From positions 1 through 21,531 of the forward strand of contig NZ_JAKEDR010000045.1 in NCBI RefSeq assembly GCF_023653455.1: a stretch of DNA of 21,531 bases. The letters are read 5' to 3'. The DNA is from Paraclostridium ghonii. Its GTDB lineage: Bacteria > Bacillota > Clostridia > Peptostreptococcales > Peptostreptococcaceae. Positions 188 through 21,450 of the stretch are shown in pieces (the first letter of the stretch is position 1; each line of letters opens with the position of its first letter). A program made the position numbers and the translations under genes. Under the pieces are notes generated by a model. It saw nothing but the letters and a program-made list of their open reading frames with translations. It ran no database searches and had not been told where the DNA came from.

Positions 188-3100
188 TTAATAACTTGGA
201 TCTATATTTAATACAGTTTGCTCAGGGTAAGGGCTAGTAACTGATTTAGAAGTAACTATAAAGTCATATCTAGTTCCAAGTGTATTGCTAGAAGGAATTA
301 AGGCAGTTATTTTAATAATTTTAGTTGTATTAGGCGATAAGTTTGACATTTCAGGCAATGTTTGTTGAAATAATGTATTCTTTTGAACATCTGCTATCTT
401 AGCGTTATCAATGTAGATTGTATATGGTATTGCTACTTTCTGTATAGTTAAAGTGAAATCATCATATCCACCACCAATATTTTTAAAATAATCTAATATA
501 ACGGCGGTATTACCAGGTTGAGTAACTATAAATGAAGTAGAATCATTTATTTTAGTTAATGGGTCTGGAGTAAGAGACACACCAGGAGGTAAAATGCATG
601 TTACTATATTGCTTTTTTCGCCACTATAAATTTTTGAAGTTGATACATCGTTGTAATAAGATACAGCAGTAGCTTGTGTAGATATAGAAGTTCCAGATCT
701 AAGTGTAGACATAGGGATTACAGTAAAAGATACATATCCAGAAGTAGAAGGATCTAACTGAGGTATAAATATAACAATTTTTTTAGAAGAACTATTATAA
801 GAAGCAGTACAAAATACATTTGTATTTATTTGAGAAAATAAAAAATTGCCACTTATAGGTATTTCTATAGTACCATTTATTAATCTAATAGAGCTGTTAT
901 TTTGAAACGTTAGTTTAAATTGCATTATTGAATTAGTATTTATATTTGCATTTTGATTATAAATTATAGAATTTGATTTATCCATTGCAGTTAAATTCAT
1001 AACTAAATTAGGATGGTTTATAGTTATAGTCAAACTTTTACTAATACTAGAAAAACTTCCTCCTTGAACTTGTTGATAAAAACATTGTATAGAGTTTGTT
1101 TGAGTTGAAGTTGTTGAGTTTAGATTTTTATTCGCATTAGTAATTTGGCATTTCATAGTATAATTAATAGTTTGTGAGCTGAGTCTAGCATCAACTGTAC
1201 CTTCACTAGGTAATGTTATTATATTGGAAGAAACTGTGGGGTTAATAGGGGTATTGTTTTTTGTAGTTGGACCCACATAAGATTGACCACCACTTGGAAG
1301 TGTATCTTTTAAATACAAACCATAGGCAATCGTTCCTTGAGGAACAGTTACTCCAATTAAATATGTTATATTTGAACCAACTTTAAATATATCTGAAATA
1401 TTAGTTTTTGTAAGAGATATAGATAGTGACGATAAAGTAATGGACGCAGTTTTTATAAGATTAGAGTATTGATAGTTAGTAGAACCTTCTTCATATACTT
1501 GTGAATAGGGGTTTGTATTAGTAGCTGCAGTTGTTATATTAACTCCAGGAGCTAATACTGAACTTATTGTAACATTATAAGTTAAAGTTAAAGATTGACC
1601 AGGAGCTAGCTTACTTATGCTTACAATTATATTATTATTTTGTATATTTATAGAAGAATAAGTTCCTGAACCACTAACTTTTAAGCTACTTGAGTCAAGT
1701 GTAAACCATGAGGATAAGGTATCACTAAGTGTAAAGTTAAATGCATCTGTTTCAGTTCCTAGATTATTAGTGTTAGATATAGTAACTGAATAGGTATAAA
1801 TTTCATTAGCTTTTATAGCATTTTTATTAGGTCCACTCACAGATTTAGTTAATTGTAAATTTGGAGTTCCTATATTAAAGTTTACCTGAGATCTATTGCT
1901 ATATGAATTACCATATGTGTTTACTCCTTTTAATTTCATTAAATTTGCATTTTGAGTAGATGATCCAAGTTGAGCTATAGGTACTTTAAAATTAATAGTA
2001 GCAGATGATAGTCCAGGAATATCTCCGTAATAAAAATCAACCCCATGAGGGCTTATAAGCTGAGGAGATTCTATGGGATTATAACCTGTATATACATAGT
2101 TTAAGTTATTTATTGGATCTGCTGAAAGAGGGAAAAAATCGTCTATATAAACTTCTTTTTGTATGGCCTTCAAGGTAGATGCATTATATGATAATAAGTA
2201 TTCAGCTAAATCTCCAGGAGCTAAAGTATTTATACTTTTAGGGGTTCCATTTTTATAATAAGCTTTTATAAATTGTTTAGTTATAGATCCTATATTAATA
2301 CTAGAAGACACATTTGCACTATCTGTAACAGTAGATAAAGGGCCTATAAGCACGCCAGATATCTTTGTAGTAGCTAGAAATGGGTCTGATGCAACCACTG
2401 GAAGATTTAAAGATTGATTATCTTTTTTATATCTATAATAACTATCAACTTTTGAAGATATAGTAATAGTTTTAGTAGAGTTTTGAGTAGCTAAACTAAA
2501 GTTATAAGTTAAATTAAATCCTTGAAGTGTTGGATCGTCAACAACAGAAGTTGGCGAAGTTGAACTAGAAATATAGTATATTCCATCTGGTAAAAAATAA
2601 TTAACTACTATATTTTGAATATTGTAGTATTGGCCAACTTTATAAACGTAGGTATATGTTACAATATTTTGAACGTCGACTAAACTTTTACTTATAGACG
2701 TAGTTATAATCAAATCCATAGCAGAAAATTTAGTAGTACTATCTGAACTTGAAACTACGAGTGGATCAGCTGAAGTCATATTAATATTCATATTTAACAT
2801 AGTTCCATGAACTATAAAATTTCCTTGATTATTATCATATTGATTCCATACAGCATAACTAAAAGTCAAAGTAGTAGCACTATTTACTGATAAATTTATA
2901 TTTCCATAATAAATTTGAGTGTAAATTTTACCATTTATATTTACTAAACTTATAGTAGGGTTTATAAATTTTGAAGCATCTGTACCTGATAAAGTTATAT
3001 TGCCAATATATCTAATTCCGTTTTCTAATAAAATTGATATATTTACTAAAGATGTTGAATTTGAATTATTATAAAACTTACAAGTAGCTGTATTTACTTG

Positions 3101-3622
3101 AGTATAATCATTTAAATTAGTAGATGTTCCAGCTCCTTTTAATACCTTACTTGTGGTAGAAATAGTACTGTAAAATCTTACTGTTTGAAAAGACATAGCT
3201 AATTGTTGTGTTAAAACTTCATTTCCTATATCGTAAACTCCTCTAGGCATTGTATCGACTTGGCAAGAAACATTAATTCCTGAAAAGGTATAACCAAAAG
3301 GAATATTAGTTCCATTTTTAAATTTAGTGTTACATTTTACAGTAATAGTAAAAGTATAATCGATTTCAAGTGGTGCTAGATCTTTTAAATTAATCCAAGA
3401 GTAAGTAATACTATTATCTGCATTAGTAGTACTAGATGTTTGAGCTACAGTTGAACTAGAAAGAACCATACCATCAGGCAGTTTTAAAAATAAACCTAAA
3501 TTATACAATCTTTGAGAGGTGCTTAAATTTTTAATTTTAACATCAAATGATGACGTACTGCCTATTAATATAGGAATATTTTGGGTTTTATCTATACTCA
3601 TACTTAATATATTTGAAGGCAT
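188..3622 (-). CDS. Large DUF11-repeat (Ig-like) protein, probable surface or spore protein
   Basis: An 1144-residue protein of Thr/Ser/Asn-rich beta-sandwich repeats of the DUF11 (TIGR01451, 'conserved repeat domain') type. The clearest repeat is at residues 588-730: opening strand LTKSV, a TLSDTL segment, the proline/glycine turn LAPGQS and closing strand YSNLIKT. Others are at about 304-446, 735-868 and 871-1010; the ends are more diverged. I see no signal peptide, transmembrane helix, LPXTG or S-layer-homology motif. The start is ATG at 3622 because AAGGAG (3631-3636) lies 8 nt upstream; the longer GTG start at 3631 would put that ribosome site inside the gene. It is transcribed away from the 2693-residue DUF11 gene and ends at the hairpin at 104-156. 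Function is not known from sequence; a structural role at the cell or spore surface is inferred from repeat architecture. Confidence 0.85.
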   Translation of the reverse strand: MPSNILSMSIDKTQNIPILIGSTSSFDVKIKNLSTSQRLYNLGLFLKLPDGMVLSSSTVAQTSSTTNADNSITYSWINLKDLAPLEIDYTFTITVKCNTKFKNGTNIPFGYTFSGINVSCQVDTMPRGVYDIGNEVLTQQLAMSFQTVRFYSTISTTSKVLKGAGTSTNLNDYTQVNTATCKFYNNSNSTSLVNISILLENGIRYIGNITLSGTDASKFINPTISLVNINGKIYTQIYYGNINLSVNSATTLTFSYAVWNQYDNNQGNFIVHGTMLNMNINMTSADPLVVSSSDSTTKFSAMDLIITTSISKSLVDVQNIVTYTYVYKVGQYYNIQNIVVNYFLPDGIYYISSSTSPTSVVDDPTLQGFNLTYNFSLATQNSTKTITISSKVDSYYRYKKDNQSLNLPVVASDPFLATTKISGVLIGPLSTVTDSANVSSSINIGSITKQFIKAYYKNGTPKSINTLAPGDLAEYLLSYNASTLKAIQKEVYIDDFFPLSADPINNLNYVYTGYNPIESPQLISPHGVDFYYGDIPGLSSATINFKVPIAQLGSSTQNANLMKLKGVNTYGNSYSNRSQVNFNIGTPNLQLTKSVSGPNKNAIKANEIYTYSVTISNTNNLGTETDAFNFTLSDTLSSWFTLDSSSLKVSGSGTYSSINIQNNNIIVSISKLAPGQSLTLTYNVTISSVLAPGVNITTAATNTNPYSQVYEEGSTNYQYSNLIKTASITLSSLSISLTKTNISDIFKVGSNITYLIGVTVPQGTIAYGLYLKDTLPSGGQSYVGPTTKNNTPINPTVSSNIITLPSEGTVDARLSSQTINYTMKCQITNANKNLNSTTSTQTNSIQCFYQQVQGGSFSSISKSLTITINHPNLVMNLTAMDKSNSIIYNQNANINTNSIMQFKLTFQNNSSIRLINGTIEIPISGNFLFSQINTNVFCTASYNSSSKKIVIFIPQLDPSTSGYVSFTVIPMSTLRSGTSISTQATAVSYYNDVSTSKIYSGEKSNIVTCILPPGVSLTPDPLTKINDSTSFIVTQPGNTAVILDYFKNIGGGYDDFTLTIQKVAIPYTIYIDNAKIADVQKNTLFQQTLPEMSNLSPNTTKIIKITALIPSSNTLGTRYDFIVTSKSVTSPYPEQTVLNIDPSY

Positions 3623-3630
3623 AAAAATCA

Positions 3631-3636
3631 CTCCTT
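3631..3636 (-). promoter_or_regulatory. Ribosome-binding site fixing the start at 3622
   Basis: AAGGAG on the minus strand, 8 nt before ATG 3622. It overlaps the upstream in-frame GTG, so the shorter start is preferred. Confidence 0.8.
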
Positions 3637-3803
3637 TTTAATAAAATATATTCATTTTAAGTACTTTGTGATACGACAAATTATTAAAAATGAACTAATT
3701 TCATTAAAAGTAAATAAAACAGTCAACTAAAAAGATGAGTATTAATAGTATATAGAAGGGTTATTTTGAAAATTATTAGACCTTATAAATATAGTATTAA
3801 AAT

Positions 3804-3810
3804 AGGAGGA
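3804..3810 (+). promoter_or_regulatory. Strong ribosome-binding site fixing the GTG start at 3817
   Basis: AGGAGGA lies 6 nt before GTG 3817. The alternative TTG at 3766 has only a weaker AGAAGGG upstream and would place this strong site inside the coding region. Confidence 0.75.
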
Positions 3811-3816
3811 GATATT

Positions 3817-6800
3817 GTGGCGTTAACACCCAGATTTACAGCTATAGATAAAGCTGTATTAGTAGCGACAGGAAATAGTTTTGTAGTATGTGGAAGTACA
3901 ACAGCTACAGGAGTAAATACATCTGATATGATAAAACCAGATGGAAGCACAACAAGGAACTGGACAGAAGCTGGAAGTACAGCTAATTTAAATATATTAT
4001 CAAATAGTACTATACTATATGCAGAACTTTTATGGTATTCAACTGTAAAAAGTAATATACAAGGTGCCCCAGACCTTAGAACTATAGAAGATGATGCTAT
4101 AACTTTTACAACACCAAAAGGTAGTTATCAGATAATACCTCAAAATACTGAAACTAATACAGGTACATCAGGAAGCATAGACAGATATAGAGCCGCAGAT
4201 GTAACATCATATGTACAAGGTGCTTTATCTGGAAACTATACTGTATCAAAAGTTCCTATAAGTATTCCAGATACAGGATTAAGCAATACTAGAGCAGGAT
4301 GGACACTTTCAGTAATTTATAGAAATGATGTTTTACCACCTCAACAGGTAATATATCTATCAGGTATATCCGTTGCAAAACCTGGAGAACCTTTACAAAC
4401 AACTATTTCAGGATTTACAACAAGTTCAGATATATCTAAACTTAAAGGAAATGTATTTATAGCTTGTGCAAATGGAGAACCGCTAAATGGTAATGATTTT
4501 ACTTATGCAGGCCCATCTTTTGCACAACTTAGCAATATAGGTAATACAGTAAACACCCCTAATCCAAATCCTGGGACATCACCAAACAATCCAGGAAATA
4601 ACTTTTTTTCAGGATTAATAAACTTAGTAAATCCATTGAGTGATAATAATGGATTAATAAACATAAATGGTACTAATGGAAGCAATAATAATGATGGATT
4701 TGTTCCAATCCAAAAACTAGGGGCTAGAAATAAATGGGATATAACAAATGTAGATATAACTAAAACTTTAGTTCCAAATCAAACATTATTAGTAGGTCAA
4801 GTAAATTCAGCGGAATCTGGAGATGGAGTACAACTTTTAGCAGTTGCTTCACAAATTAATGTAAATGCTCCTAATATGATAGCTACACTAGATGCTTATG
4901 ATATAGATGGCGATGGGGAATACAACATACAAGTTGGAGAGCCTTTGGTTTACTGTGCAAAAGTAAGAAATGATGGAAATGTAGATGCAAATAATGTTAT
5001 TTTATCGGCAGTTATAGATTCTTCAACAAGCTTTATTCCAGGTTCTGTAACTATAAATGAAGTTTCATATCCATCTGCTAATATATCTGCAGGGATAAAT
5101 ATAGGAACTATTCCAGCTAAAGGGGTTAAAAATGTATTTTTCACAGTCAGAGTTAACTCGGTTCCAAATGGTGGATTACTACATCAAAATGTAAATTATA
5201 ACTATCAATTTACTTCAGGATCAGACACGATTACTAACTATGCAAAAACTAATACTATAGAGATAATAGTTCAAGATGGATTATTATCAATACTAAAATC
5301 TTCATCTAAATCAACTGCAGTTGTGGGAGATAATATAACTTACACAATTACTATAGAAAATATAGGAACAGAAATAGCTAAAAATGTATTTTTCCAAGAT
5401 AAAATAGATATAAATTGTTCATTTGTACAAGGAAGCGTAATAATTGATGGAACTGAATATATTGATTATAATCCAGTAACCGGTATAGGATTACCTGATT
5501 TAGCTGTTGGAGAAACTACGCAAATTATTTTTCAGTTTAGTGTAAATTCATTACCAGTTTCAACTAAAGTAAATAATATTTCTTGTGTAACATTTGGATA
5601 TATATTTAACCAATATGGATATTTAAGAGAAAGAACTATATTTAGTAATATTACACCTACTACGATTCAGTATGTAGATATAATAGGAGAAAGATGTAAT
5701 AACAATAATTACCCTAAAGTAGGAGATACAGTAACTTATACATTAAGTTTAACTAACACAGGTAACATAGATGCTACAGACGTTCAAGTTTTAGAACCTC
5801 CTATACCTGGTGCAACATTTGTTGATGGAAGCGTTAAGATAAATGGAAATATAAAACCAACATTAAATCCATTTAACGGATTTATATTGCCTAATCCAAT
5901 CCAATCTAAAGATACAACTGAAGTTGAGTATAAAGTTTTAATAAATGAAATAAATCCAGCTAGCTTAATAGAAAATACAGCTCAAGTTCCATTTAAATAT
6001 CAAATATCTTCTGAAACTGGTGTTGTACAATCTGAAAAAGATTCTAATAAAGTAGATACTGTTGCAAATTATACATGTATGAATATTGTTGAAAGTGTTG
6101 ATAAAGATTATGCAACTATAAATGATATCTTATACTATAAAGCAACTATAACAAATAATGGCAATATAAACTCTACAAATACAGTGTTTTTATCTAGCAT
6201 ACAATCAGAAACTTCATTTATTACAGGATCAGTTAGCATAAATGGAATCAGTTATCCTTCATACAATCCAAATCAAGGATTTACATTAGGTACTATTTGC
6301 CCAGGAGGGACTGTAGAAGTTTTATATGAAGTGAAAGTAAATTCTATGCCTAATCCAAATATAGTATATAATCAATCAGATTTAGTATATAGCTATCAAC
6401 CAGCCCCTGATGGAATTACACTAACAACTACAATTTACAGTAATATTGTTCAAACGATTATAAATAAATCATCATATACAGTAACAAAGTCTGTAGATAA
6501 ATCATATGCTCAACCAGGAGATTATATAGTTTATACAACAGTAATTCAAAATACAGGAACTGTTAGTTTAAGAGATGTAAAATTTGTTGACTTTTTAGGT
6601 ATTTTCTTGAATTTTTATCAAGGCAGTTTATATATAAATGGAATAAATTATCCAGACTATAATCCAAATATACAGTTTACTATAGGAGATTTACATCCTG
6701 GTGATACAGCAACAATAGTATTTGGAGCAAATATCGTTAGTAATACTCCGGTTGGATATATACCAAATACATCTGAGGTTACGCTTAGTTATAAAGAAAC

Positions 6801-9800
6801 TCCATATAGCCCAACTATCACTAAAACTGTTTATTCAAATACTGTAAAAACGTATGATCCATACGCTCAAATAGATATTGTAAAGAGTGTAGACAAAACA
6901 TATGCAGGAGTAGGTGAAACTTTAACATACTCATTTACAGTAACTAATAACGGTAATACTAGTGCAAATAATGTAATGTTTGCAGATATACTTCAATCTC
7001 AAACATCATTTATTTTAGAATCTGTATATGTAAATGGAGTAAATAAACCAAGTTACAACCCTCAATCTGGATTTAGCTTAGGTAATATTAATATTGGTCA
7101 GGTTGTAAATATTGAATTTAAAGTTAAAGTAGATAGTTTACCAAGCCCAAATAATGTTAAAAATAATGCTACAGCATCGTATAGCTATTATATAGATCCA
7201 AACCAACAACCAATATCTAAGACTTCTACAAGTAACACAGTAACTATTACAATAAATTCTTACTCAGCGACATTAACTAAGTCAGTGAATAAGTTATATG
7301 CAGTTGTAGGAGACACACTTGATTATGAAGTAATAGCAAATAATACAGGAACAATACCATTAACTAATGTAACTTTTAAAGATTTAATTCCAAATGGGGC
7401 AACATTTGTGGATGGATCTGTAGTTGTAGATGGAGCTAGCAAACCAAATGCCAATCCTAATAATGGATTTGCGATAAGTGACATTTTACCTGGAGGAAAT
7501 GTTATTGTAATGTTTAAAGTAAGTGTAACTAGTGTTCCGAATCCTCCACAAATTATTAATAGTGCTAATATTAACTTCAAATATAAATTAAGTCCAACGA
7601 CCCCAGATATTGATGGAAGCTTAAATAGTAATAATGTAACTACAAATGTAAGAAATATAAATGTAAGCAATACAAAAAGTGTAAATAAAACGTATGCAAC
7701 AGTAGGAGATAAATTAACGTATACTTCTGTTATAACTAATAATGGAAATATAAATATAACAGATACTAATTTCATCGACTTAGTTCCAAGTAATACAACG
7801 TTTGTAAGTGGATCTGTAAAAATAGGCTCTACAGAATATCCAGACTATGATCCTAATACAGGATTTACTCTAAACACTATATCACCAGGAGCATCAGTTA
7901 CTGTAAGCTTTGATGTAAATGTAGAATCCGTTCCTAATAATGGATATATAACTAATACATCAAATATAAACTATTCATACAAAATAGATCCAAATGGAAG
8001 CAATATATCAGGGAATAAAACAAGTAACTCTGTAACAACTTATATAAGATTAGGAAATTTAAATATTACGAAGTATTCAGATAGAACTGTAGTTAGAATA
8101 AATAATGTAATAACTTACAGCTTTGTTATATCAAATACAGGAAATACTGTATTAAAAAATTTAATATTCACGGATATGATTCAAGAAGAGTCGTTATTTA
8201 ATGTAGGATCAGTATATGTAAATGGAGTAAATAAACCAACTTATAATCCGGAATCTGGATTTGCCTTAGACGATATAGATATAGGGCATCAAACTACTGT
8301 TAGTTTTAGTGTTACAACTGAACAAATACCATTAAATAATGAGTTGTTAAATAAAGCTACTGTACAATATTCTTACTATGTAGATCCTAATGGAAGTCCT
8401 ACGACTAAAACGAAAGATTCAAATACAACTACTGTTTATGTTTATGACACTATAGTATCTGCAAATAAATCAGTAGATAAAAGCATTGCAAAAGTGGGAG
8501 ATACCTTAAACTTTAGTATAGATATAACTAATGATGGTAATGTAGCAGCTCAATTTGTAGAATTTATAGATACTTTAGATTCACATTTAACATTTATATC
8601 AGATTCTGTATATGTAAATGGAGAGCAAAAAACAGGATACAACCCAAATAATGGATTTGCATTAAATGATATTGAACCAAACACAACAACTACAGTAACT
8701 TTTAAAGCTACGATAGATAGTAGACCTTTAGATAACACAATTTATAACTTTGCTACTATAAACTATAAATACACTGTAGGAACTGAATTAGTAAATGCAA
8801 CAATAAATACAAATACAACAATGACGTTTGTTGCAGTTGGAGAGTTAACACTTACAAAATCAGTAAATACAAATTATGCTACAGTTGGAGATAATTTAAG
8901 TTATTCAGTAATGATAAAAAATACTGGATCAGTCAATGCAACTAACTTAACATTTACAGATTTAATGCCAACTGCAACTTCGTTTAATAGTGGAACTGTT
9001 GTAGTGGATGGAATACCACAGCCAACTTTTAACCCTATTAATGGATTTGTATTAAGCGATTTAACACCAAATCAATATCACACAGTAACATTTAGTGTTC
9101 ATGTAGATTCGCTACCTCAAAGTGGAAAAGTAGAAAATACTGCAGATGTAGAGTTCACTTATAAATTAACGCCTACTGATAATCCAGTTACAATAACAGC
9201 TACATCTAACAAAGTTACTACCTTCATTAATTTAGGTTTATTAAATCTTACAAAGTCAGTAGATAAGTTATACGCAACTATAAATGATATATTAACTTAT
9301 ACAATTAGTATAGTAAACCAAGGAAATGCAACTTGTTCGAGTATTGTATTTAAAGATTTAATACAATCAGATGCAAGTTTTGAAAATGGATCAGTTTATA
9401 TAAATGGAGAAAATAAGCCAAATTACAACCCTAACTCAGGGTTTAACTTAGAAGATATAGTAGGTTATGGAACATCTACAGTTAGCTTTAAAGTTAAAGT
9501 TAATAGTATACCACCATCAGACTATACTTTATATAATAGTGCTACAGCAAATTATAACTACAATGTAGACCCTGATAAAACTCCGGTATCAAAACAAGCT
9601 ACAAGTAATACTGTAAGTACAGTTATAAATGTAGGATCATTAAATGCAACTAAGTCAGTTAGCAAATCATATGCTACTATTGGAGATGTATTAACATACA
9701 CAGTTAATATATTAAACAATGGAAATGTAATTGCTAAAAATGTAAACTTTAGAGATGTAATTCCAAATGGATTAACTTTTGTAACAGATTCAGTAACTAT

Positions 9801-11898
9801 AAACGGAATATCACATCCTGGATATAATCCTTACGCAAGCTTTAGTTTAGGAGATATAATATCTGGAGATACAGTTGTTGTTAAATTTGATGCAACTGTA
9901 ACTTCATTGCCAAATCCATCACTAGTAAGTAATACTGCTAATTTAACATTTGCATATAGAATAAATCCTAATGGAAATGATTTATATGGTCAAACAAACT
10001 CAAATACAGTAACAACTCAAATAAACTTGGGTTCATTAAATCTAGTGAAGAGTGTTAATAAGGGTTATGTAACAATAGGCGAGACGATAGTTTATACAGT
10101 TACTGTAACTAATAATGGTAATGTAAATGCAACAGATGTAATTTTTACAGATAACTTACAATCTGATGTTACATTTAATTCAGGGTCTGTTAAAATTGAT
10201 GGAAATATTTATGAAAATTATGATCCTAATCAAGGATTTAATTTAGGTACTATAGAGCCTTTAGCTAGTGTAACAGTTGTATTTACTGCTAATGTTATAC
10301 AACAACCAACACATGATACTGTACTAAACTATGCAGTAGGAACGTTCAACTACAAGGTAAACCCAAATGGTCAAAACTATAGTAAATCATCAAATTCAAA
10401 TACGGTTTATACTATTATAATTTATCCAAAACTAAGTATGACTAAGTCAGTAGATAAATTATATGCAACATTACAAGATACACTAAATTATAATGTATTG
10501 GTTAAAAATGATGGAAATACAACTATATCTAACTTAGTATTTACAGATGTTTTATCAAATGGAGCTATATTTAAATCAGGGACAGTTACAATAGATGGAA
10601 TTAGTTATCCTAACTATGATCCAATAGTAGGATTTAATTTGCCTAATAACCTTATAGCAGGTAACACATCTTTAGTACAATTTAGTGTAATTGTAAATAC
10701 TTTACCAGCACCTCCACAGGTAACAAACTATGCTACATCAAACGGAGTATACAAAGTAGACCCACAAGGTAATAATTACCCTATATCATCAACATCAAAT
10801 ACTGTAACGACTAATATAAATGTAGGCAGTTTATCTAATACAAAATCAGTTGATAAATTATATGCAAAAGTAAACGATACTCTAACTTACACTTCAACAA
10901 TCATAAATACAGGAAATGTAAATGCAACTAATTTGAAATTTACAGACTTACTACAATCGGAGTTAAGTTATATATCAGGAACTGTTAGAATAAATAATGT
11001 TTTATATCCAGCACTAGATCCAACTATAGGATTTGATTTATCTGATTTAGGAGCAAATCAGACAGTAACAGTGACTTTTGATGCTAAAATAAACGCTTTA
11101 CCAGTGCCAGCTTATGTAACAAACACATCACAAATTCAATTTAGTTATAAAGTGGATCCAAATGGTACTTTATCAACTAAGACACAAACAAGTAATTCAG
11201 TAACAACTAATGTGGTATTAGGAAAAATTACAGCAGTTAAAACTGTAGATAAAGCAATAGCAACTATAGGAGATATACTAAATTATACGGTAACACTTAC
11301 AAATGTAGGTAATGTTATAGATAATGAGGTATTATTCCAAGATACTCCATCTACAGGAGCACAATTTAAATCAGGAACTGTAGTTGTAAATGGAGAAAGT
11401 AAACCAAATTATGACCCTACGGTTGGATTTAGTATAGGTGATATAGGAATAGGTAATGTTGTAATAGTACAATTTAGTGCTACAGTAGTTTCAGTTCCAT
11501 CATCTAATAAAGTAACGAACCAAGCTGTTATACCATTTAAGTACTTGGTAGATCCAAAACAATCTCCATACAGTGATACAGCTTACTCAAATACAGTAAC
11601 TACTAATATTGCATATGGCAATTTAAATGTAACTAAATTTGTAAATAAAAAATATGCGACTATTGGAGAAAAATTGACTTATACAATTACAATTGAAAAT
11701 ATAGGAAATATAAATGCTACAGATGTAGTATTTTTAGACTATACTCCTCATAATTCTATATTTGTATTAGGAAGTGTAACTGTAAATGGAGTGGTTCATA
11801 CAGACTATAATCCATCAGCAGGATTTAATTTAGGAACTATGGTTCCAGGTCAAATAATAACAGTTGTCTATCAAGTTCAAGTTGTAGATTTATGTTAA
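3817..11898 (+). CDS. Giant DUF11 protein with 18 tandem ~132-residue repeats
   Basis: With GTG 3817 as start the product has 2693 residues; an upstream TTG at 3766 would add 17. Residues 1-352 are a distinct head that opens ALTPRFTAIDKA, as in other clostridial/bacillar DUF11 proteins as I recall them, with an Asn/Gly/Pro-rich linker at about 243-297. Residues 353-2693 are 18 DUF11 repeats with period ~132. The consensus has an opening strand TKSVDK.YA..GD.L.Y, then N.GN, F.D, GSV.ING, Y.P..GF.L, PG, and closing strand SNTVTT. The 18th (2604-2693) stops after about 90 residues, lacks the closing strands and ends in Cys; a terminator follows 14 nt later. There is no signal peptide, membrane anchor or sorting signal. 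Repeats are diverged at DNA level, so the array is old. A rod-like surface or spore-appendage protein is inferred, not shown. Confidence 0.88.
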   Translation: MALTPRFTAIDKAVLVATGNSFVVCGSTTATGVNTSDMIKPDGSTTRNWTEAGSTANLNILSNSTILYAELLWYSTVKSNIQGAPDLRTIEDDAITFTTPKGSYQIIPQNTETNTGTSGSIDRYRAADVTSYVQGALSGNYTVSKVPISIPDTGLSNTRAGWTLSVIYRNDVLPPQQVIYLSGISVAKPGEPLQTTISGFTTSSDISKLKGNVFIACANGEPLNGNDFTYAGPSFAQLSNIGNTVNTPNPNPGTSPNNPGNNFFSGLINLVNPLSDNNGLININGTNGSNNNDGFVPIQKLGARNKWDITNVDITKTLVPNQTLLVGQVNSAESGDGVQLLAVASQINVNAPNMIATLDAYDIDGDGEYNIQVGEPLVYCAKVRNDGNVDANNVILSAVIDSSTSFIPGSVTINEVSYPSANISAGINIGTIPAKGVKNVFFTVRVNSVPNGGLLHQNVNYNYQFTSGSDTITNYAKTNTIEIIVQDGLLSILKSSSKSTAVVGDNITYTITIENIGTEIAKNVFFQDKIDINCSFVQGSVIIDGTEYIDYNPVTGIGLPDLAVGETTQIIFQFSVNSLPVSTKVNNISCVTFGYIFNQYGYLRERTIFSNITPTTIQYVDIIGERCNNNNYPKVGDTVTYTLSLTNTGNIDATDVQVLEPPIPGATFVDGSVKINGNIKPTLNPFNGFILPNPIQSKDTTEVEYKVLINEINPASLIENTAQVPFKYQISSETGVVQSEKDSNKVDTVANYTCMNIVESVDKDYATINDILYYKATITNNGNINSTNTVFLSSIQSETSFITGSVSINGISYPSYNPNQGFTLGTICPGGTVEVLYEVKVNSMPNPNIVYNQSDLVYSYQPAPDGITLTTTIYSNIVQTIINKSSYTVTKSVDKSYAQPGDYIVYTTVIQNTGTVSLRDVKFVDFLGIFLNFYQGSLYINGINYPDYNPNIQFTIGDLHPGDTATIVFGANIVSNTPVGYIPNTSEVTLSYKETPYSPTITKTVYSNTVKTYDPYAQIDIVKSVDKTYAGVGETLTYSFTVTNNGNTSANNVMFADILQSQTSFILESVYVNGVNKPSYNPQSGFSLGNINIGQVVNIEFKVKVDSLPSPNNVKNNATASYSYYIDPNQQPISKTSTSNTVTITINSYSATLTKSVNKLYAVVGDTLDYEVIANNTGTIPLTNVTFKDLIPNGATFVDGSVVVDGASKPNANPNNGFAISDILPGGNVIVMFKVSVTSVPNPPQIINSANINFKYKLSPTTPDIDGSLNSNNVTTNVRNINVSNTKSVNKTYATVGDKLTYTSVITNNGNINITDTNFIDLVPSNTTFVSGSVKIGSTEYPDYDPNTGFTLNTISPGASVTVSFDVNVESVPNNGYITNTSNINYSYKIDPNGSNISGNKTSNSVTTYIRLGNLNITKYSDRTVVRINNVITYSFVISNTGNTVLKNLIFTDMIQEESLFNVGSVYVNGVNKPTYNPESGFALDDIDIGHQTTVSFSVTTEQIPLNNELLNKATVQYSYYVDPNGSPTTKTKDSNTTTVYVYDTIVSANKSVDKSIAKVGDTLNFSIDITNDGNVAAQFVEFIDTLDSHLTFISDSVYVNGEQKTGYNPNNGFALNDIEPNTTTTVTFKATIDSRPLDNTIYNFATINYKYTVGTELVNATINTNTTMTFVAVGELTLTKSVNTNYATVGDNLSYSVMIKNTGSVNATNLTFTDLMPTATSFNSGTVVVDGIPQPTFNPINGFVLSDLTPNQYHTVTFSVHVDSLPQSGKVENTADVEFTYKLTPTDNPVTITATSNKVTTFINLGLLNLTKSVDKLYATINDILTYTISIVNQGNATCSSIVFKDLIQSDASFENGSVYINGENKPNYNPNSGFNLEDIVGYGTSTVSFKVKVNSIPPSDYTLYNSATANYNYNVDPDKTPVSKQATSNTVSTVINVGSLNATKSVSKSYATIGDVLTYTVNILNNGNVIAKNVNFRDVIPNGLTFVTDSVTINGISHPGYNPYASFSLGDIISGDTVVVKFDATVTSLPNPSLVSNTANLTFAYRINPNGNDLYGQTNSNTVTTQINLGSLNLVKSVNKGYVTIGETIVYTVTVTNNGNVNATDVIFTDNLQSDVTFNSGSVKIDGNIYENYDPNQGFNLGTIEPLASVTVVFTANVIQQPTHDTVLNYAVGTFNYKVNPNGQNYSKSSNSNTVYTIIIYPKLSMTKSVDKLYATLQDTLNYNVLVKNDGNTTISNLVFTDVLSNGAIFKSGTVTIDGISYPNYDPIVGFNLPNNLIAGNTSLVQFSVIVNTLPAPPQVTNYATSNGVYKVDPQGNNYPISSTSNTVTTNINVGSLSNTKSVDKLYAKVNDTLTYTSTIINTGNVNATNLKFTDLLQSELSYISGTVRINNVLYPALDPTIGFDLSDLGANQTVTVTFDAKINALPVPAYVTNTSQIQFSYKVDPNGTLSTKTQTSNSVTTNVVLGKITAVKTVDKAIATIGDILNYTVTLTNVGNVIDNEVLFQDTPSTGAQFKSGTVVVNGESKPNYDPTVGFSIGDIGIGNVVIVQFSATVVSVPSSNKVTNQAVIPFKYLVDPKQSPYSDTAYSNTVTTNIAYGNLNVTKFVNKKYATIGEKLTYTITIENIGNINATDVVFLDYTPHNSIFVLGSVTVNGVVHTDYNPSAGFNLGTMVPGQIITVVYQVQVVDLC
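4873..11895 (+). repeat. 18 tandem DUF11 repeats (17 complete, 1 truncated)
   Basis: Coding repeats of about 396 nt. Repeat 1 starts near residue 353, repeat 2 near 489, repeat 7 near 1152 and repeat 18 at 2604. Repeats 5-17 share the opening K-S-V-D/N-K pattern most closely. Repeats 1, 3 and 4 are the most deviant, lacking both the opening-strand Lys and the mid-domain Asp. The conserved Asn of the closing strand is in repeats 1-17 and absent only from truncated repeat 18. Confidence 0.9.
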
Positions 11899-11951: not shown

Positions 11952-13370
11952 TTAATCAAAAGTTAAATCAACTTCATCTAAAGATACAACTTTACTTTTA
12001 TGTTTTAATTTATACCCTAGGTATAAAGCTAAAAATAGGGGGATTCCTATATAAGAAGCTATTAAACTATTCCAGTCAATTCCACTTGGAGTTATGCAAG
12101 AGTAACCTTGTCCTAAGATAATTATTAAACACATTATAAGTGCTAATACAGGTCCAAATGGGTACCATTTAGCCTTGAATTTTAAATCTTTTATATCATG
12201 ACCTTGATGAACATATGCTTTTCTAAATCTATAATGACAAATTGCTATACCAACCCATGCTATAAATCCAGCAAGACCAGAAGCTGAAACTAACCAAACA
12301 TAAACTGTACTCTCTGCAAATATACCAGTTAAGAAACATGCAGAAGCTACTAATGTAGTTAATATTAATGAATTTACAGGAACACCTCTGTTATTAGTTT
12401 TTGCAAAAACTTTAGGAGCAAGTCCATCTTTGGCCATTGAATAAAGCATTCTAGTTGATGCGTACATACCAGAGTTACCAGCAGATAACACAGATGTTAG
12501 TATTACTGCGTTCATAAGAGACGCAGCACCTGCAATTCCTGCTTTTTCAAAGACCATAGTAAATGGACTTTGATAAACACTAGCTTGAGTAAATGGTATA
12601 ATAGCGCCTAAAACAATTATCGTTCCTAGGTAAAATATTAATATTCTCCAAAAAATTGATTTTATAGCTTTTGGTATAGTTTTTTCAGGATTCTCACTTT
12701 CTCCAGCAGCAACTCCTATAAGCTCTGTTCCTTGGAATGAAAATCCTGCAATTAAGAAAATTGCAAATACGGATTTTAAACCACCGTGAAATGGACCATC
12801 AGCTATAAAGTAGTTATGAAAACCTACATCATCTGAACCCATTACCCCAATTATCATAAGAACCCCTATTATTAAAAATACTATTATAGTTACAACCTTA
12901 ATTCCTGCAAACCAATATTCAGATTCTCCATAAGCTTTTGCTGATAAAAAATTTAAACCAACAATTATTGTTAAAAATAATATACTCCAATAAAGTCCAG
13001 GAATATTAGGGAACCAATATTTCATAATTAATGAACCTGCAACCATTTCAGCTGCTATAGTTATAGCCCAGTTATACCAATAATTCCACCCAAGTGCAAA
13101 TCCAAGCGCTGGATCAATAAATTTTGTAGCATAAGAACTAAAAGAACCAGATATAGGCATATAAGTTGCCATTTCTCCTAAACTGGTTATTAAAAAGTAA
13201 ACCATAATACCTATTAGCCCATAAGCTAACAACGCACCTCCTGGACCTGCTTGGTGAAGAGTATCTCCCATTGCAAGAAATATACCTGTTCCAATAGATC
13301 CTCCTAAAGCAATCATATTTAGATGCCTAGCTTTTAAATCTCTTTTTAAGTCATGACTTTCATTACTCAT
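11952..13370 (-). CDS. lysP: Lysine-specific permease (AAT family)
   Basis: A cytoplasmic-membrane amino-acid/proton symporter of 472 residues, expected to have 12 membrane helices. Family signatures include DLKARHLNMIALGGSIGTGIF at the start of helix 1 (residues 11-31; the G-S-I-G-T-G stretch is the substrate-contacting unwound segment in this family), GFALGWNYWYNW near 90-101, the helix-6 segment SFQGTELIG, and the tail motif QGHDI. Similarity to enterobacterial LysP runs end to end by eye. Substrate assignment rests strongly on the lysine riboswitch just upstream. The start is ATG 13370, because AGGAGG (13380-13385) lies 9 nt before it; the longer TTG start would contain that site. It converges with the giant DUF11 gene, 53 nt away. 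Confidence 0.93.
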   Translation of the reverse strand: MSNESHDLKRDLKARHLNMIALGGSIGTGIFLAMGDTLHQAGPGGALLAYGLIGIMVYFLITSLGEMATYMPISGSFSSYATKFIDPALGFALGWNYWYNWAITIAAEMVAGSLIMKYWFPNIPGLYWSILFLTIIVGLNFLSAKAYGESEYWFAGIKVVTIIVFLIIGVLMIIGVMGSDDVGFHNYFIADGPFHGGLKSVFAIFLIAGFSFQGTELIGVAAGESENPEKTIPKAIKSIFWRILIFYLGTIIVLGAIIPFTQASVYQSPFTMVFEKAGIAGAASLMNAVILTSVLSAGNSGMYASTRMLYSMAKDGLAPKVFAKTNNRGVPVNSLILTTLVASACFLTGIFAESTVYVWLVSASGLAGFIAWVGIAICHYRFRKAYVHQGHDIKDLKFKAKWYPFGPVLALIMCLIIILGQGYSCITPSGIDWNSLIASYIGIPLFLALYLGYKLKHKSKVVSLDEVDLTFD

Positions 13371-13379
13371 TTCAATTAT

Positions 13380-13385
13380 CCTCCT
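13380..13385 (-). promoter_or_regulatory. lysP ribosome-binding site
   Basis: AGGAGG on the minus strand, 9 nt before ATG 13370; it decides against the upstream TTG at 13388. Confidence 0.85.
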
Positions 13386-13442
13386 CAATTGTAGTGAACT
13401 TTATGTAAATAAGTAACCAAGATAATAAATCTTTATGACAAT

Positions 13443-13474: not shown

Positions 13475-13524
13475 ATACGAAAAAATTCATACGAAAAAAG
13501 TATGATAATACCGTACGTTTTCAT

Positions 13525-13689
13525 TGAAAATAGCACCCCACAAAATGTGACAGTCTCATATATGTTTTATATAAGCCCAGCAAATAGTATTAAAGCTATC
13601 AACTATTCACTTCGGCGAAATTCCCTTTCATATTATTTCATTGAGCTTACCTCCATAATATTACTTATAAGTTTCGCGCCTCTATCTCA
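13525..13689 (-). promoter_or_regulatory. Lysine riboswitch aptamer (L-box)
   Basis: Read on the minus strand, this leader matches the L-box consensus (Rfam family 'Lysine') block by block: GAGATAGAGGCGCGAA at the 5' side of P1 and the core, AGTA in P2, GAAAGGGAA, then CGCCGAAG, TTTGCTGGGC, CTGTCACATTTTGTGG and closing TGCTATTTTCA. P1 forms from the first and last blocks with one bulge. The order and spacing resemble the Bacillus subtilis lysC leader. It lies ~155 nt upstream of lysP, in the same orientation, behind a good promoter and before an intrinsic terminator. It therefore regulates the permease by transcription attenuation in response to lysine. Confidence 0.96.
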
Positions 13690-13710
13690 GTTATATACTT
13701 GTTGTATACA

Positions 13711-13916: not shown

Positions 13917-14405
13917 CTAGTTGTACATATTATGTTGACTCATATAATTATAAATTTTTTCGCCGTGTTCTTGTTCTTCTTTTTGAATATGATTTAAAAC
14001 TTGGCGTATGTTTTTGTCTGCAAATTCAAATATAGCTGTATTATATGTAGAAGAAACATATTTTTCAGTACTAAGAGAATCTTGACATAACATTTTATCT
14101 TGTTCATTGTAAGTATTCATTTGTAATGGTTGTGAATTGATATTAGGCATTGTATTTATATTTTGCATATTTGGATTTTGATTTCCTTGGTTTTGACCTT
14201 GGTTAATATTTGGAACAGTACCGCTTAAAATTTGATTTATAGAATTTAAATGTTGCTGTTCATGTTGGGAAAGTTCATTAAATAAATTTTTAAGCTGTGG
14301 GTCTGAAGCTTTTTGAGAGTACTGTTGGTATTTTTGAATACATAACTCTTCGTGACTTTTTTCATCTTCTAATAATATTTTTTCTTTAGCAGTTAAATTT
14401 AACAT
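13917..14405 (-). CDS. CotF-family (ferritin-like) spore coat protein
   Basis: A 162-residue soluble protein of the spore coat F type (Coat F domain, ferritin-like fold). Two helical halves flank a low-complexity Asn/Gln/Gly/Met linker at about 62-100. The first half ends with E44-L-S-Q-H48 and E49-Q-Q-H52; the second carries E144-Q-E-H147. These glutamate/histidine pairs resemble ferritin-like metal-binding helices, though metal binding is not shown. The start is ATG 14405, because GGAGGTG (14412-14418) lies 6 nt upstream; the longer frame from ATG 14420 overlaps that ribosome site. It is monocistronic and ends at the hairpin 13877-13910. The family is usually made during sporulation and found in the coat. 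I could not identify a sporulation sigma promoter upstream. Confidence 0.85.
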   Translation of the reverse strand: MLNLTAKEKILLEDEKSHEELCIQKYQQYSQKASDPQLKNLFNELSQHEQQHLNSINQILSGTVPNINQGQNQGNQNPNMQNINTMPNINSQPLQMNTYNEQDKMLCQDSLSTEKYVSSTYNTAIFEFADKNIRQVLNHIQKEEQEHGEKIYNYMSQHNMYN

Positions 14406-14411
14406 AAAATA

Positions 14412-14418
14412 CACCTCC
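14412..14418 (-). promoter_or_regulatory. Ribosome-binding site of the CotF-like gene
   Basis: GGAGGTG on the minus strand, 6 nt before ATG 14405; it overlaps the upstream in-frame ATG at 14420 and so excludes it. Confidence 0.8.
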
Positions 14419-14492
14419 ATTAATAGTTTGTATAATAAACAATTTATTATTCATTTATGATAAAATTAGTACATAATAAAAAAATTGCCCTT

Positions 14493-14499
14493 AAAGGAG
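14493..14499 (+). promoter_or_regulatory. Ribosome-binding site fixing GTG 14508
   Basis: AAAGGAG lies 8 nt before GTG 14508. The ATG at 14457 has no Shine-Dalgarno sequence in front of it. Confidence 0.75.
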
Positions 14500-14507
14500 T
14501 ACGAAAA

Positions 14508-15542
14508 GTGAGAAATGAAAATTTAAGTCTAAATAAAATAATAGATTTTAAAAAATGGAATAACTTACAAGATTATCTTTCGCTAGTTACTAAAATGGCA
14601 ATAGTTATAGTTGACTATAAAGGAAATCCAATAACTAAACACAGTAGATGTCACAAGTTTTGCGAATTAGTAAGAGGTAATTCTAAACTATCGAAATACT
14701 GTGAAAAATGTGATTCAAGAGGTGGATTAGAAGCTGTAAGAATGAATAAACCTTATATATATTTATGCCACTATAATATAGTGGATGTAGCTATACCTAT
14801 TATAATAGATGAAAAGTATATAGGGGCTATAATGGCAGGTCAAGTAAGAATAGACGATTATAAATCAACAGATATGTTAGAGCAAATATTAAAGGTTCCA
14901 GATAAAGTATTAAATCAAAATGATATTTCAAATAAACTTAGTGAATATTATAATGATTTACCTATTTTATCATACAAAGAAGTTGAAGATACATCTAATA
15001 TGTTATTTTTACTGTCTAATTACATAGTAGAAGAAGCGTTAAATAAAAACTTAATTTTAGAAATGTATGAAAAAACTATGAAAAATGGAATAGAAATAGA
15101 TAGCAAAACTTTTAATGGTTATAGCATAAAAAATATAGAAAATGTAAAAAAAGAAATATCTAATGCAATTGTAAGTAGATATATTACTCATGATAATAAA
15201 AAAGATATAGAAGAGATTAATGTAAGTAAAACTTTAAAACCAGCAATGGAATATATATACAATAATAAAAGTGAAAATATATCAATGGATAATATGGCCA
15301 AGCTATGTCACGTTAGCACAAGCTATTTTAGTAGGTTATTTTCAAAAGAAATAGGTGAAAATTTTTCAACATACATATCAAAACTTAAAATAAAATGGGC
15401 AAAAGCACTTTTAGAAGAAACTGACATGACTATAAATGAAATTAGTGATGAACTTGGGTTTAGTGAATCTGGATACTTTATAAAGATATTTAAAAAGTAT
15501 GAGGGTGTAACCCCTAATCTATATAAGAAACACCTTAGATAA
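14508..15542 (+). CDS. PocR-domain / AraC-type transcriptional regulator
   Basis: A 344-residue cytoplasmic DNA-binding regulator. Residues ~10-175 form a PocR-type sensory domain (a family linked to glycerol and propanediol control) with a cysteine cluster: C48, C52, C65, C68, then C87-H89. Residues ~240-342 are an AraC/XylS double helix-turn-helix: ISMDNMAKLCHVSTSYFSRL for the first and MTINEISDELGFSESGYF for the second, ending GVTPNLYKKH. The GTG start at 14508 is preferred over the in-frame ATG at 14457, which lacks a ribosome site. It stands 192 nt upstream of gldA on the same strand, the usual place for a dedicated activator, so its target is probably gldA-dhaK. The ligand (glycerol, dihydroxyacetone or propanediol) cannot be told from sequence. 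Confidence 0.88.
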   Translation: MRNENLSLNKIIDFKKWNNLQDYLSLVTKMAIVIVDYKGNPITKHSRCHKFCELVRGNSKLSKYCEKCDSRGGLEAVRMNKPYIYLCHYNIVDVAIPIIIDEKYIGAIMAGQVRIDDYKSTDMLEQILKVPDKVLNQNDISNKLSEYYNDLPILSYKEVEDTSNMLFLLSNYIVEEALNKNLILEMYEKTMKNGIEIDSKTFNGYSIKNIENVKKEISNAIVSRYITHDNKKDIEEINVSKTLKPAMEYIYNNKSENISMDNMAKLCHVSTSYFSRLFSKEIGENFSTYISKLKIKWAKALLEETDMTINEISDELGFSESGYFIKIFKKYEGVTPNLYKKHLR

Positions 15543-15609
15543 GGTATATATTAGATTTGTTAAAAAAATTTCAAAAAGTACAAAAATTCCGATTATAGTA
15601 TTTTACATC

Positions 15610-15640
15610 AAAAAATTACGGTTTTAAATTGTAATTTTTT
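15610..15640 (+). promoter_or_regulatory. Inverted repeat upstream of gldA: operator or weak terminator
   Basis: Perfect 10-bp arms, AAAAAATTAC (15610-15619) and GTAATTTTTT (15631-15640), have an 11-nt spacer. As RNA the stem is nearly all A-U, but its 3' arm is a T-run, so it could be a poor terminator for the regulator gene. As DNA it lies 15 nt upstream of the gldA -35 position and could be a protein-binding site. Confidence 0.5.
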
Positions 15641-15654
15641 AATATATATATCCA

Positions 15655-15683
15655 ATGTATTTTAGGGAAAACGGTATTATAAT
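15655..15683 (+). promoter_or_regulatory. Probable gldA-dhaK promoter, activator-type
   Basis: A perfect TATAAT at 15678-15683 has only ATGTAT at the -35 position (15655-15660, 17-nt spacer). A good -10 with a poor -35 suits dependence on an AraC-type activator, such as the one encoded just upstream. The leader to ATG 15735 is about 45 nt. Confidence 0.6.
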
Positions 15684-15734
15684 GAATATAACTTAAAAAA
15701 TAATATAACTACAAAATACAAAGGAGAGATTAAT

Positions 15735-16862
15735 ATGAGAAAAGCATTTATATGTCCTACAAAATATGTACAAGGTCAAGATGAGTTATTAAATTTAGGA
15801 TACTTTATAAAAGTATTTGGGGATTCAGCTTTATTAATCGCACATAAAGATGATATAGAACGTGTTAAAGATAAATTAGATTCAACTGCTAAAAAGTTTG
15901 GAGTAACTTTTGTTGAAAGTAACTTCGATGGAGAGTGTTCTAGAGAAGAGGTAGCAAGATTACAAGAGTTAGCTAAGAACAATAAATGTTCATGTACAAT
16001 TGGTCTTGGAGGAGGAAAAGCAATAGATACAGCTAAGTGTGTAGCTAAAGGAGATAATTTAATAATAGTTCCGACTATAGCTGCAACAGATGCCCCTACA
16101 AGTCATTCAGCAGTATTATATACACCAGATGGAGCTTTTGATGATTATGCATATTTCAAACAAAGTCCAGATGTAGTTTTAGTTGATACTACAGTTATAG
16201 CTAAAGCTCCAACTAGATTTTTAGTTTCTGGAATGGGAGATGCTTTATCAACTTATTTTGAAGCAAGAGCAACTTCTAATTCATATTCAAATGTAAATGC
16301 AGGACTACCTTGTGGTTATAGAGAAGGATTATGTGGAGAAGCGAAAGGAACTAATACAGCGTTAGCGTTAGCTAAGTTATGTTATGAAACTCTTATAAAA
16401 GATGGTTTAAAAGCAAAAGTAGCATCAGATTGTAATTTAGTTACTCCAGCCTTAGAAAATATAATTGAAACAAATATTCTTTTATCTGGACTTGGGTTTG
16501 AAAGTGGAGGGCTAGCAGCAGCTCATGCTATTCATGATGGACTTACTATATTAGAAGGAACACATAAATATTTCCATGGAGAAAAAGTTGCTTTTGGAAC
16601 AATAGCACAATTAGTTTTAGAAAATGCACCAACAGAAGAGATAGAAGAAGTATTAGAATTTTGTTTACAAGTAGGTCTTCCTGTTTGTCTAGAAGATATA
16701 GGGGTAGACACTATTACAGAAGAAGAACTTAAAGAAGTAGCACAAAAAGCATGTATTAAAGAAGAATCTATACATTCTATGCCATTCCCTATAGATGTTG
16801 AAGAGGTTGCAGCTGCTATAATTACAGCTGATAGCATGGGGAAAAACTATAAAAACAGATAG
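15735..16862 (+). CDS. gldA: Glycerol dehydrogenase
   Basis: An NAD+-dependent, zinc-containing enzyme of the iron-type alcohol dehydrogenase superfamily (EC 1.1.1.6) that oxidises glycerol to dihydroxyacetone in the cytoplasm. The product has 375 residues. The NAD-binding loop is GLGGGKAIDTAK (90-101). Expected metal ligands are D169 in SGMGDA, H264 in AAAHAIHDG and H281 in HGEKVAFG, corresponding to D171, H254 and H271 of E. coli GldA. Between D169 and H264 there are about 12 extra residues relative to E. coli GldA, around LPCGYREGLCGE (191-202), including C193 and C200. The start is ATG 15735 with AAGGAGAG (15721-15728) 6 nt upstream. It forms an operon with the dihydroxyacetone kinase gene, whose ribosome site overlaps the gldA stop codon. 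Confidence 0.96.
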   Translation: MRKAFICPTKYVQGQDELLNLGYFIKVFGDSALLIAHKDDIERVKDKLDSTAKKFGVTFVESNFDGECSREEVARLQELAKNNKCSCTIGLGGGKAIDTAKCVAKGDNLIIVPTIAATDAPTSHSAVLYTPDGAFDDYAYFKQSPDVVLVDTTVIAKAPTRFLVSGMGDALSTYFEARATSNSYSNVNAGLPCGYREGLCGEAKGTNTALALAKLCYETLIKDGLKAKVASDCNLVTPALENIIETNILLSGLGFESGGLAAAHAIHDGLTILEGTHKYFHGEKVAFGTIAQLVLENAPTEEIEEVLEFCLQVGLPVCLEDIGVDTITEEELKEVAQKACIKEESIHSMPFPIDVEEVAAAIITADSMGKNYKNR

Positions 16863-16873
16863 AGGTGTGACAC

Positions 16874-18640: not shown

Positions 18641-18666
18641 TAATCCATAAATTTCATTATAAATAT

Positions 18667-18700
18667 AAAAGAGCCTCAACTTTAAGTTGAGGCTCTTTTT
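18667..18700. terminator. Bidirectional terminator between dhaK and adhE
   Basis: GAGCCTCAACTT (18671-18682) and AAGTTGAGGCTC (18684-18695) form a strong GC-containing stem around one to five loop bases. It is flanked by AAAA on the left and TTTTT on the right, so it works for the plus-strand gldA-dhaK transcript and the convergent minus-strand adhE transcript. Confidence 0.95.
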
Positions 18701-18730
18701 ATATAAAATATAATTAATCTAAAGTACAAT

Positions 18731-21397: not shown

Positions 21398-21402
21398 TGG
21401 TA

Positions 21403-21410
21403 TTCCCCCT
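21403..21410 (-). promoter_or_regulatory. adhE ribosome-binding site
   Basis: AGGGGGAA on the minus strand, 5 nt before ATG 21397; it excludes the upstream TTG start at 21448. Confidence 0.8.
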
Positions 21411-21421
21411 TTATATAATTG

Positions 21422-21450
21422 AGTTGTAAGATTAAAAAATGTCTTCAACT
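21422..21450 (-). promoter_or_regulatory. Hairpin in the adhE 5' leader
   Basis: AGTTG-AAGA pairs with TCTT-(A)-CAACT: nine base pairs with one bulge around a 10-nt A/T loop. It is placed 11 nt upstream of the ribosome site. It could influence leader stability or translation; function is not shown. Confidence 0.45.

Follow-up and report, generated by a model that had tools for sequence, protein, structure and literature searches.

A DUF11 rod protein of Paraclostridium ghonii and a probable natural tag/catcher split of its last domain

A stretch of 21,531 nucleotides from Paraclostridium ghonii (contig NZ_JAKEDR010000045.1, positions 1 to 21,531 of the forward strand; hereafter the window) contains a gene for a very long protein, here called the rod, whose last DUF11 repeat is cut off before its domain is complete. 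Why should such a chain end inside a domain, and keep there the lysine and aspartate that in most of its other repeats are predicted to serve an isopeptide bond? Our analysis of the sequences points to a probable answer, in which repeat 18 of the rod and a separately encoded tag protein would together complete one immunoglobulin (Ig)-like domain, crosslinked from Lys to Asn, as a natural tag/catcher pair that would anchor the rod to the spore coat. The splitting of repeat 18 is what is new here; the DUF11 isopeptide domain itself is already known.

The unfinished last domain of the rod

The rod gene (3766..11898, forward strand, as are all rod features below) encodes 2710 amino acids (aa) from a TTG at 3766. 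The preferred start is the GTG at 3817 (2693 aa), which has AGGAGG just 5′ of it and is the start position used by most rod orthologs. Residues are numbered here from the TTG, 17 higher than the GTG numbering of an earlier, sequence-only reading of the window. The protein contains 18 DUF11 stretches (Pfam PF01345, 494.8 bits against a cut-off of 24.6), with domains of the CnaA-like β-sandwich type.

Repeat 18 (11608..11895) carries K2624 (11635-11637) and D2658 (11737-11739), and the stop codon at 11896 precedes the Asn strand, leaving an open "catcher" half-domain. The last two strands are missing from the chain, the split falling in the loop that leads to the Asn strand. This end was followed in an alignment of 90 rows, comprising the query and 89 orthologs of 2500-2800 aa, drawn from 120 listed of 429 homologs after 31 listed ones had been dropped for length. 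The orthologs are 48-98% identical and come from sources named Clostridium, Romboutsia, Paraclostridium, Clostridioides, Paenibacillus and others; since rod length is nearly constant among them, each repeat was treated as an orthologous position. The Lys and Asp of repeat 18 are present in 90/90 rows, and in 89 of these the chain ends 49-55 residues past the Asp, before the Asn strand (P0058 ends earlier). The pair is invariant despite the absence of an in-chain partner, and the same residues are replaced in repeats 1, 3, 4 and sometimes 15. The sequence-only reading had noted that the last repeat is incomplete, but overlooked the persistence of its Lys and Asp in the absence of the Asn strand, as well as the second protein that carries that strand.

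The bond itself has a solved counterpart. In a CLIPPER (DUF11) domain, PDB 9IFR, Lys715 is joined to Asn806 with Asp748, i.e. at spacings of +33 and +58, and a crystal structure, a K715A mutant, and thermostability and protease data have been published (PMC12617251). The proposal that the rod repeats form isopeptide bonds thus keeps its Lys/Asp/Asn residues in a CnaA-like domain, but the DUF11 bond is not a novelty, and the accompanying remark that DUF11 is not generally described in this way is overtaken by that structure and mutant. In a profile alignment with 9IFR, the rod Lys and Asp each meet a residue of the same kind; the alignment stops before the Asn, which was therefore placed by spacing. 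The PDB search found 9IFR with the profile and gave no match with a single rod sequence. The Lys-Asp spacing of 9IFR is 34 in the HMMER alignment and 33 from the paper's numbers, 715 and 748.

In the rod, the Lys-to-Asp column spacing is 34 in 18/18 repeats. As had been read from the window, repeats 2 and 5-18 have the Lys, whose place is taken in repeats 1, 3 and 4 by Asp, Arg and Glu; the Asp follows it exactly, with replacements by Ala, Glu and Ser, and an SNTV-type Asn occurs in every complete repeat, at all 17 internal boundaries. Repeat 1 (4858..5247), where the Lys, Asp and bond Asn are D, A and Q, is predicted to be unbonded, as are repeats 3 and 4 (5692..6372), with R/E and E/S for Lys/Asp and the Asn kept. 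Repeat 2 (5296..5577) has the triad K511-D545-N604 and a predicted cis isopeptide bond, and repeats 5-17 (6487..11520) have full triads (Lys+34 = Asp, Asp+59/60 = Asn) for 13 more. The resulting 14 predicted cis bonds support the earlier figure of up to 14 bonds in a rod-like protein.

The Asn that had been proposed as bond partner, in the SNTV strand, is probably the wrong one. In repeats 2-17 the Asn of a VxN[T/S]A motif lies at +59/60 from the Asp and +93/94 from the Lys, about 24 residues before the SNTV Asn, and we assigned the bond to it because its Asp-Asn spacing is close to that of 9IFR and the SNTV Asn lies beyond the solved domain. In repeat 7 (7279..7560) the predicted triad is K1172 (7279-7281), D1206 (7381-7383) and, probably, N1265 (7558-7560). 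The Asn named earlier as N1272 (7630-7632) is by homology not the bond Asn; it stands at Lys+117, which would fall past the 9IFR domain end (828), and on spacing and location it was rejected. The ends of repeats 3 and 4 do not decide between the two, the SNTV Asn being kept in 90/90 rows and the VxN Asn in 90 and 88 of 90.

Among the orthologs, Lys and Asp are present in at least 89/90 rows for repeats 6-14 and 16-18. In repeat 4, Lys occurs with Asp in 40/90 rows and Glu with Ser or Ala in 50/90, mixed combinations being absent (0), though two changes on the tree, both joint, are enough to explain these states. In repeat 15 the Lys was lost four times independently, each time together with the Asp, the Asn or both (sign test p 0.125, the events being too few). 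Repeat 2 follows this poorly: Lys changes go the same way as Asp+Asn in a mean of 2.9 pairs, the opposite way in 0.6 and with no difference in 2.5. Repeat 1 has the Lys in 1/90 rows, the Asp in 1/90 and the Asn in 6/90. Lys-bearing repeats 2, 4, 6, 11 and 14 sometimes have Asp in place of Asn at VxN in orthologs; Asp is the reactive partner in SpyTag, according to an abstract.

A C-terminal sorting signal was not found in the rod, which ends ...VVYQVQVVDLC within a DUF11 domain, as do its orthologs. Its N-terminal head domain (3817..4899) is without a Pfam match and has a mean column identity of 80% over 12 loci. A related rod of 4096 aa (L156, 5031-17321, reverse strand) has an open end of the same kind; an apparent homolog of that rod, P0097 of Clostridium tarantellae (4087 aa), carries the mucin/carbohydrate-binding domain PF03272.

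A separate protein with the missing hairpin

The two missing strands are found at the start of another protein. This tag protein (~285-310 aa) begins, for example, M-R-V-I-N-E-C-R-I-D-F-K-Y and runs on to an SN-x-V strand, its first residues representing the missing two-strand hairpin with the Asn. There follow one complete DUF11 domain (matched in 9/9 members and carrying its own invariant Lys, Asp and Asn) and a SPOCS-like domain. The tag Asn is present in 27/31 homologs, the four exceptions being a tag-less Clostridioides form. In sequence, then, one domain is divided over two polypeptides, with the Lys and the acid on the rod and the Asn strand on the tag protein.

Two tests bear on this complementarity. 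A hidden Markov model (HMM) of the hairpin, built from window repeats 2-17 only and run on 700 open reading frames (ORFs), matched nothing at E<=0.01 except 12 rods and, from residue 2-5 on, 11 tag proteins. When open end and tag were joined in silico, the domain match extended from ~93 to 134 of 137 positions. The gain was 12.5-26.8 bits in 19 clostridial pairs, each of which beat 154/154 control N-termini; over all junctions, including those of the second lineage described below, 21/22 beat all 154.

The tag protein is the second gene of a gene pair near the rod in 9/12 loci (the window and 11 fetched loci, with fetched flanks). Rod and tag genes vary in order and strand and are often kilobases apart. 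In the window genome the tag protein is on another contig, where its sequence, with the tag intact, runs for ~240 aa before the contig ends, and in the L027 genome it is also on a contig other than the rod's. Of the genomes that gave the 11 fetched loci, the 10 searched all have the tag (L028 left out).

Rod and tag protein also occur together across genomes. A rod was defined by a head-domain match at E<1e-150 and a tag protein by a separate ORF matched from its first residues or, in Clostridiaceae, by any match at E<1e-40, in samples of 393 Clostridia, 71 genomes of the window family (f1), 5 of a small genus and 187 Clostridiaceae. In the window family the rod was present in 9 genomes, and the tag protein in 9/9 of these and 2/62 others; in Clostridiaceae the rod was present in 11, with a tag match in 11/11 and in 1/176 others (G593). 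The two families combined give 20/20 rod genomes with the tag protein, against 3/238 others. The small genus has the rod in 2 genomes and the tag in the same 2 (G395 and G464 recur among the 187). Among the 393 Clostridia, strong tag matches were confined to the window genome and G260, and the rod head to the window genome and, distantly, G149. Weak head-domain relatives in G429, G632 and G633, which have no separate tag protein, were not taken as rods, nor was a second such relative in G398, and weak A1 matches, mostly ordinary DUF11 by appearance, were left uncounted.

Loss of the rod and loss of the tag also go together in one group. In a group labelled Clostridioides-type from the names of matching proteins (g3), all 7 rod-less genomes have the tag altered (2) or missing (5). 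G410 and G260 retain an altered tag; in G406, G408, G409, G411 and G412 the anchor protein is matched only from profile position 19, and 5/5 frames begin past the Asn strand. In G407, where the rod is present, an intact tag protein is encoded next to it and a tag-less paralog occurs as well. The loss of the tag strand among the Clostridioides-type loci L112, L097-L101, L127 and L128 forms a natural deletion series.

The exception among the Clostridiaceae is a fusion. In G593 (L153, 4538-9955, forward strand) a complete DUF11 domain precedes the tag-protein match, and the profile (2-293 of 295) overlaps its closing strands, such that a single chain holds both halves with the SPOCS-like domain at its end; it was counted as an exception, its tag match lying inside a long chain.

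The SPOCS-like domain hints at where the rod might be attached. A neighbouring small protein has a SPOCS match in 7/9 members (best E 1.3e-5; first member 22.2 bits), and the C-terminal domain of the tag protein aligns with it by profile (97.5%, E 5e-12). SPOCS, a domain of proteins that act in spore-coat morphogenesis, stands for SpoVID-CotE-SipL, and in Bacillus the SPOCS domain of SpoVID binds CotE (PMC10867305). By a crude hydrophobicity scan there is no clear signal peptide, the best N-terminal 15-mer of the rod scoring 1.53 against 1.89 in one secreted-looking control. Because no signal peptide is clear and DUF11 proteins occur in clostridial spore appendages, the spore surface is our best inference for the location of the rod/tag system. 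In an AlphaFold2 (AF2) model of the tag protein, the tag residues block has a predicted local distance difference test score (pLDDT) of 28-52 and is predicted to be unfolded alone, and the SPOCS-like part is mostly at 66-93 with a dip to 44. Foldseek gave generic matches only, at low model confidence.

Two other ways of joining the rod end had been considered. A disulfide between a rod C-terminal Cys, which occurs within the last five residues in 60/90 rows, and a tag Cys is not general: the L025 and L156-L160 rods end without Cys, and the L157 and L158 tags have Ser. The rod N-terminus, with an invariant Asn in a TGN motif, is a possible donor strand for head-to-tail polymers, an idea set aside once the separate tag protein was found.

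A second lineage of split DUF11 proteins

A cut of the same kind is present in G149, a distant Clostridia genome, as a three-gene operon (A, B, C; L075, 5700-8418, reverse strand). Gene A encodes a head related to that of the clostridial rod, followed by DUF11 with the last domain open; a GGAG site comes after its stop codon, then gene B, which has a tag at its start, one DUF11 domain and an open domain at its end. Gene C has a tag-like start and a Cys-rich tail, the resemblance at the B-to-C junction having been judged by eye. B has 165 homologs of nearly constant size, mostly 252-257 aa. Among the 120 of these that were listed, the catcher Lys and Asp are both present in 120/120, 119 end exactly 49 residues past the Asp, and 115 have the tag Asn (of the other five, one has Thr and four do not include the start). 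The A-to-B and B-to-B junctions pass the joining test.

With a tag at one end and a catcher at the other, B may be able to polymerise with itself. A broader, tentative idea, to which we give rather less than even chances, is that CLIPPER domains split between genes make covalent surface fibres without sortase, with A as the tip, B as a self-polymerising shaft in which each catcher would weld the next B's tag, and C as the base; the clostridial rod with its SPOCS-like tag protein would then be a one-joint relative.

Alternatives, precedents and the neighbouring genes

In the mechanism that we propose, the rod would be a stalk of tandem CLIPPER (DUF11) domains, with 14 cis Lys-Asn bonds predicted in repeats 2 and 5-17 and Asp as the catalyst. 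The tag hairpin would insert into repeat 18 and complete its β-sandwich, and a Lys-Asn isopeptide bond would form spontaneously between the two chains. The rod C-terminus would thereby be welded to a spore-coat anchor, with the head domain presumably outermost.

Several results weigh against this scheme or parts of it. An AF2 model of repeats 17-18 is confident (92.6) without any donor strand, and the open end may fold unaided. Repeats 3 and 4 retain the Asn without the Lys, and its conservation can have other causes. The Fisher p values for co-occurrence, 7e-10 in the window family and 7e-17 in Clostridiaceae, ignore relatedness. In the window genome itself, the tag ORF is incomplete and does not share a contig with the rod. 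The SPOCS (PF12673) match of the tag protein is weak, reaching E<=0.1 in 1/9 members (E 0.0082, 16.8 bits against a cut-off of 23.6). A σK-like promoter scan placed 6/30 upstream regions at a shuffle fraction <=0.05 by single-base shuffles, most clearly L025, and for a σE-like pattern 0/30 reached that fraction. In the G149 operon, the B-to-C junction fails the joining test, 100/154 controls scoring as well, and the hairpin HMM gave no match in gene C among the 700 ORFs scanned.

The alternative that survives best, though we regard it as unlikely, is that the tag completes repeat 18 by donor-strand complementation only, the Lys, Asp and Asn being kept for packing or hydrogen bonding. The observed sequence facts demand strand insertion and nothing more. 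Chaperone-usher pili pair their strands in this way without a covalent bond. Such pairing is common, TasA being another case by the title of its paper. Packing alone, however, sits poorly with Lys and Asp that are replaced in repeats 1, 3, 4 and sometimes 15 and yet invariant in repeat 18, with a crystal in which the same triad of a related domain forms the bond (9IFR), and with the listed B-type proteins, where the catcher residues and the tag Asn are kept as well.

Improbable, in our view, is a history in which the 14 cis bonds alone are of importance, with repeat 18 serving as a capping domain and the tag N-terminus surviving as a relic of a fused ancestor. The fused single chain in G593 makes fission of one ancestral gene plausible, and the confident AF2 model of repeat 18 alone agrees with a cap. 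Relics are expected to decay, yet the tag Asn persists in all but four of its 31 homologs and the open end with its Lys and Asp is invariant; the differing orders and strands of the rod and tag genes mean that there is no read-through, which also counts against this history. Still harder to credit is that Lys and Asp merely follow the DUF11 consensus and that no isopeptide bonds form: bond signatures are indeed missing from some DUF11 domains (PMC12617251), and in repeat 4 of the rod the two residues have changed jointly. That a frameshift or premature stop from sequencing or assembly cuts the rod gene short, as the incomplete last repeat of the window could suggest, can be dismissed, since 89/90 rows end alike, as do 19 rods taken from separate loci (that of the window among them), and the missing strands are encoded, with a start codon of their own, by a different gene that often lies on the opposite strand or at a distance of kilobases.

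Covalent completion of repeat 18 by the tag thus remains our preferred reading, and it has partial precedents. The closest in family is the CLIPPER domain 9IFR itself, from an Acinetobacter silvestris adhesin (Costa et al. 2025, PMC12617251), which resembles the rod in its CnaA-like fold, triad spacing and tandem stalk; it is one complete, cis-bonded domain in an OmpA-anchored adhesin, whereas the last domain of the rod is split over two proteins. The text of that paper contains none of the words split, donor, truncat and SpyTag. The engineered pairs SpyTag/SpyCatcher, SnoopTag and DogTag (PMC5487036, PMC8878318) likewise divide an isopeptide domain into two parts, each bearing one of the reactive residues, that join in trans, but these were made by people from intact domains, whereas the rod/tag split is present in genomes and known from sequence.

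Among natural systems, the archaeal thread Saci_0406 (PMC9715654) is the nearest precedent, with different chemistry. It is a filament with donor-strand complementation and a proposed intermolecular isopeptide bond, in which Asp24, through its N-terminal α-amine, is linked to Asn57 of the next subunit but one; the subunit is described as resembling type I pilins. The conserved rod Lys suggests a side-chain bond rather than the α-amine bond of these threads. Phage-capsid and "sporesilk" bonds, cited in PMC12617251, are also natural, autocatalytic and intermolecular, and sporesilk concerns endospores by its title; they are described there as involving capsid subunits and an α-helical hairpin fold, in contrast to a split Ig-like domain. 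In clostridial spore appendages, DUF11 occurs in F-Anchor-3 of Clostridium aceticum and in C. taeniosporum appendage proteins (PMC11952670, PMC5749712), as here; F-Anchor-3, unlike the rod, combines DUF11 with DUF4183 and CsxA-like domains, and PMC11952670 does not use the word isopeptide. From sortase-anchored fibrillar adhesins the rod differs in that no C-terminal sorting signal was found. We found no natural split isopeptide Ig domain in the open-access literature.

If the reading is right, naturally matched tag/catcher pairs would be on offer, and very long rods are predicted to be attached to clostridial spores without sortase. Tag/catcher chemistry was invented by dividing natural isopeptide domains; genomes appear to have made such a cut themselves, and to have kept it, in at least two bacterial lineages, where it would serve to join separately made proteins.

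Upstream of the rod, a divergent gene (188..3631, reverse strand) encodes a 1147-aa protein with three weak DUF11-like stretches and is kept beside the rod in 12/12 loci. Its ortholog in L021 has four DUF11 stretches and a weak match to an isopeptide fimbrial model. The 1147-aa protein is likely part of the same structure as the rod and may be the partner at its head end. A small protein near the rod gene (13917-14420, reverse strand) resembles what we take to be CotF-type spore-coat proteins. Between it and the rod, a lysine riboswitch (13523-13692, reverse strand; Rfam RF00168, 120 bits) lies upstream of a permease-like gene (11952-13388). The remaining genes (14457-21448) encode, by eye, a regulator and glycerol-dehydrogenase-like, dihydroxyacetone-kinase-like and AdhE-like proteins of unrelated metabolism.
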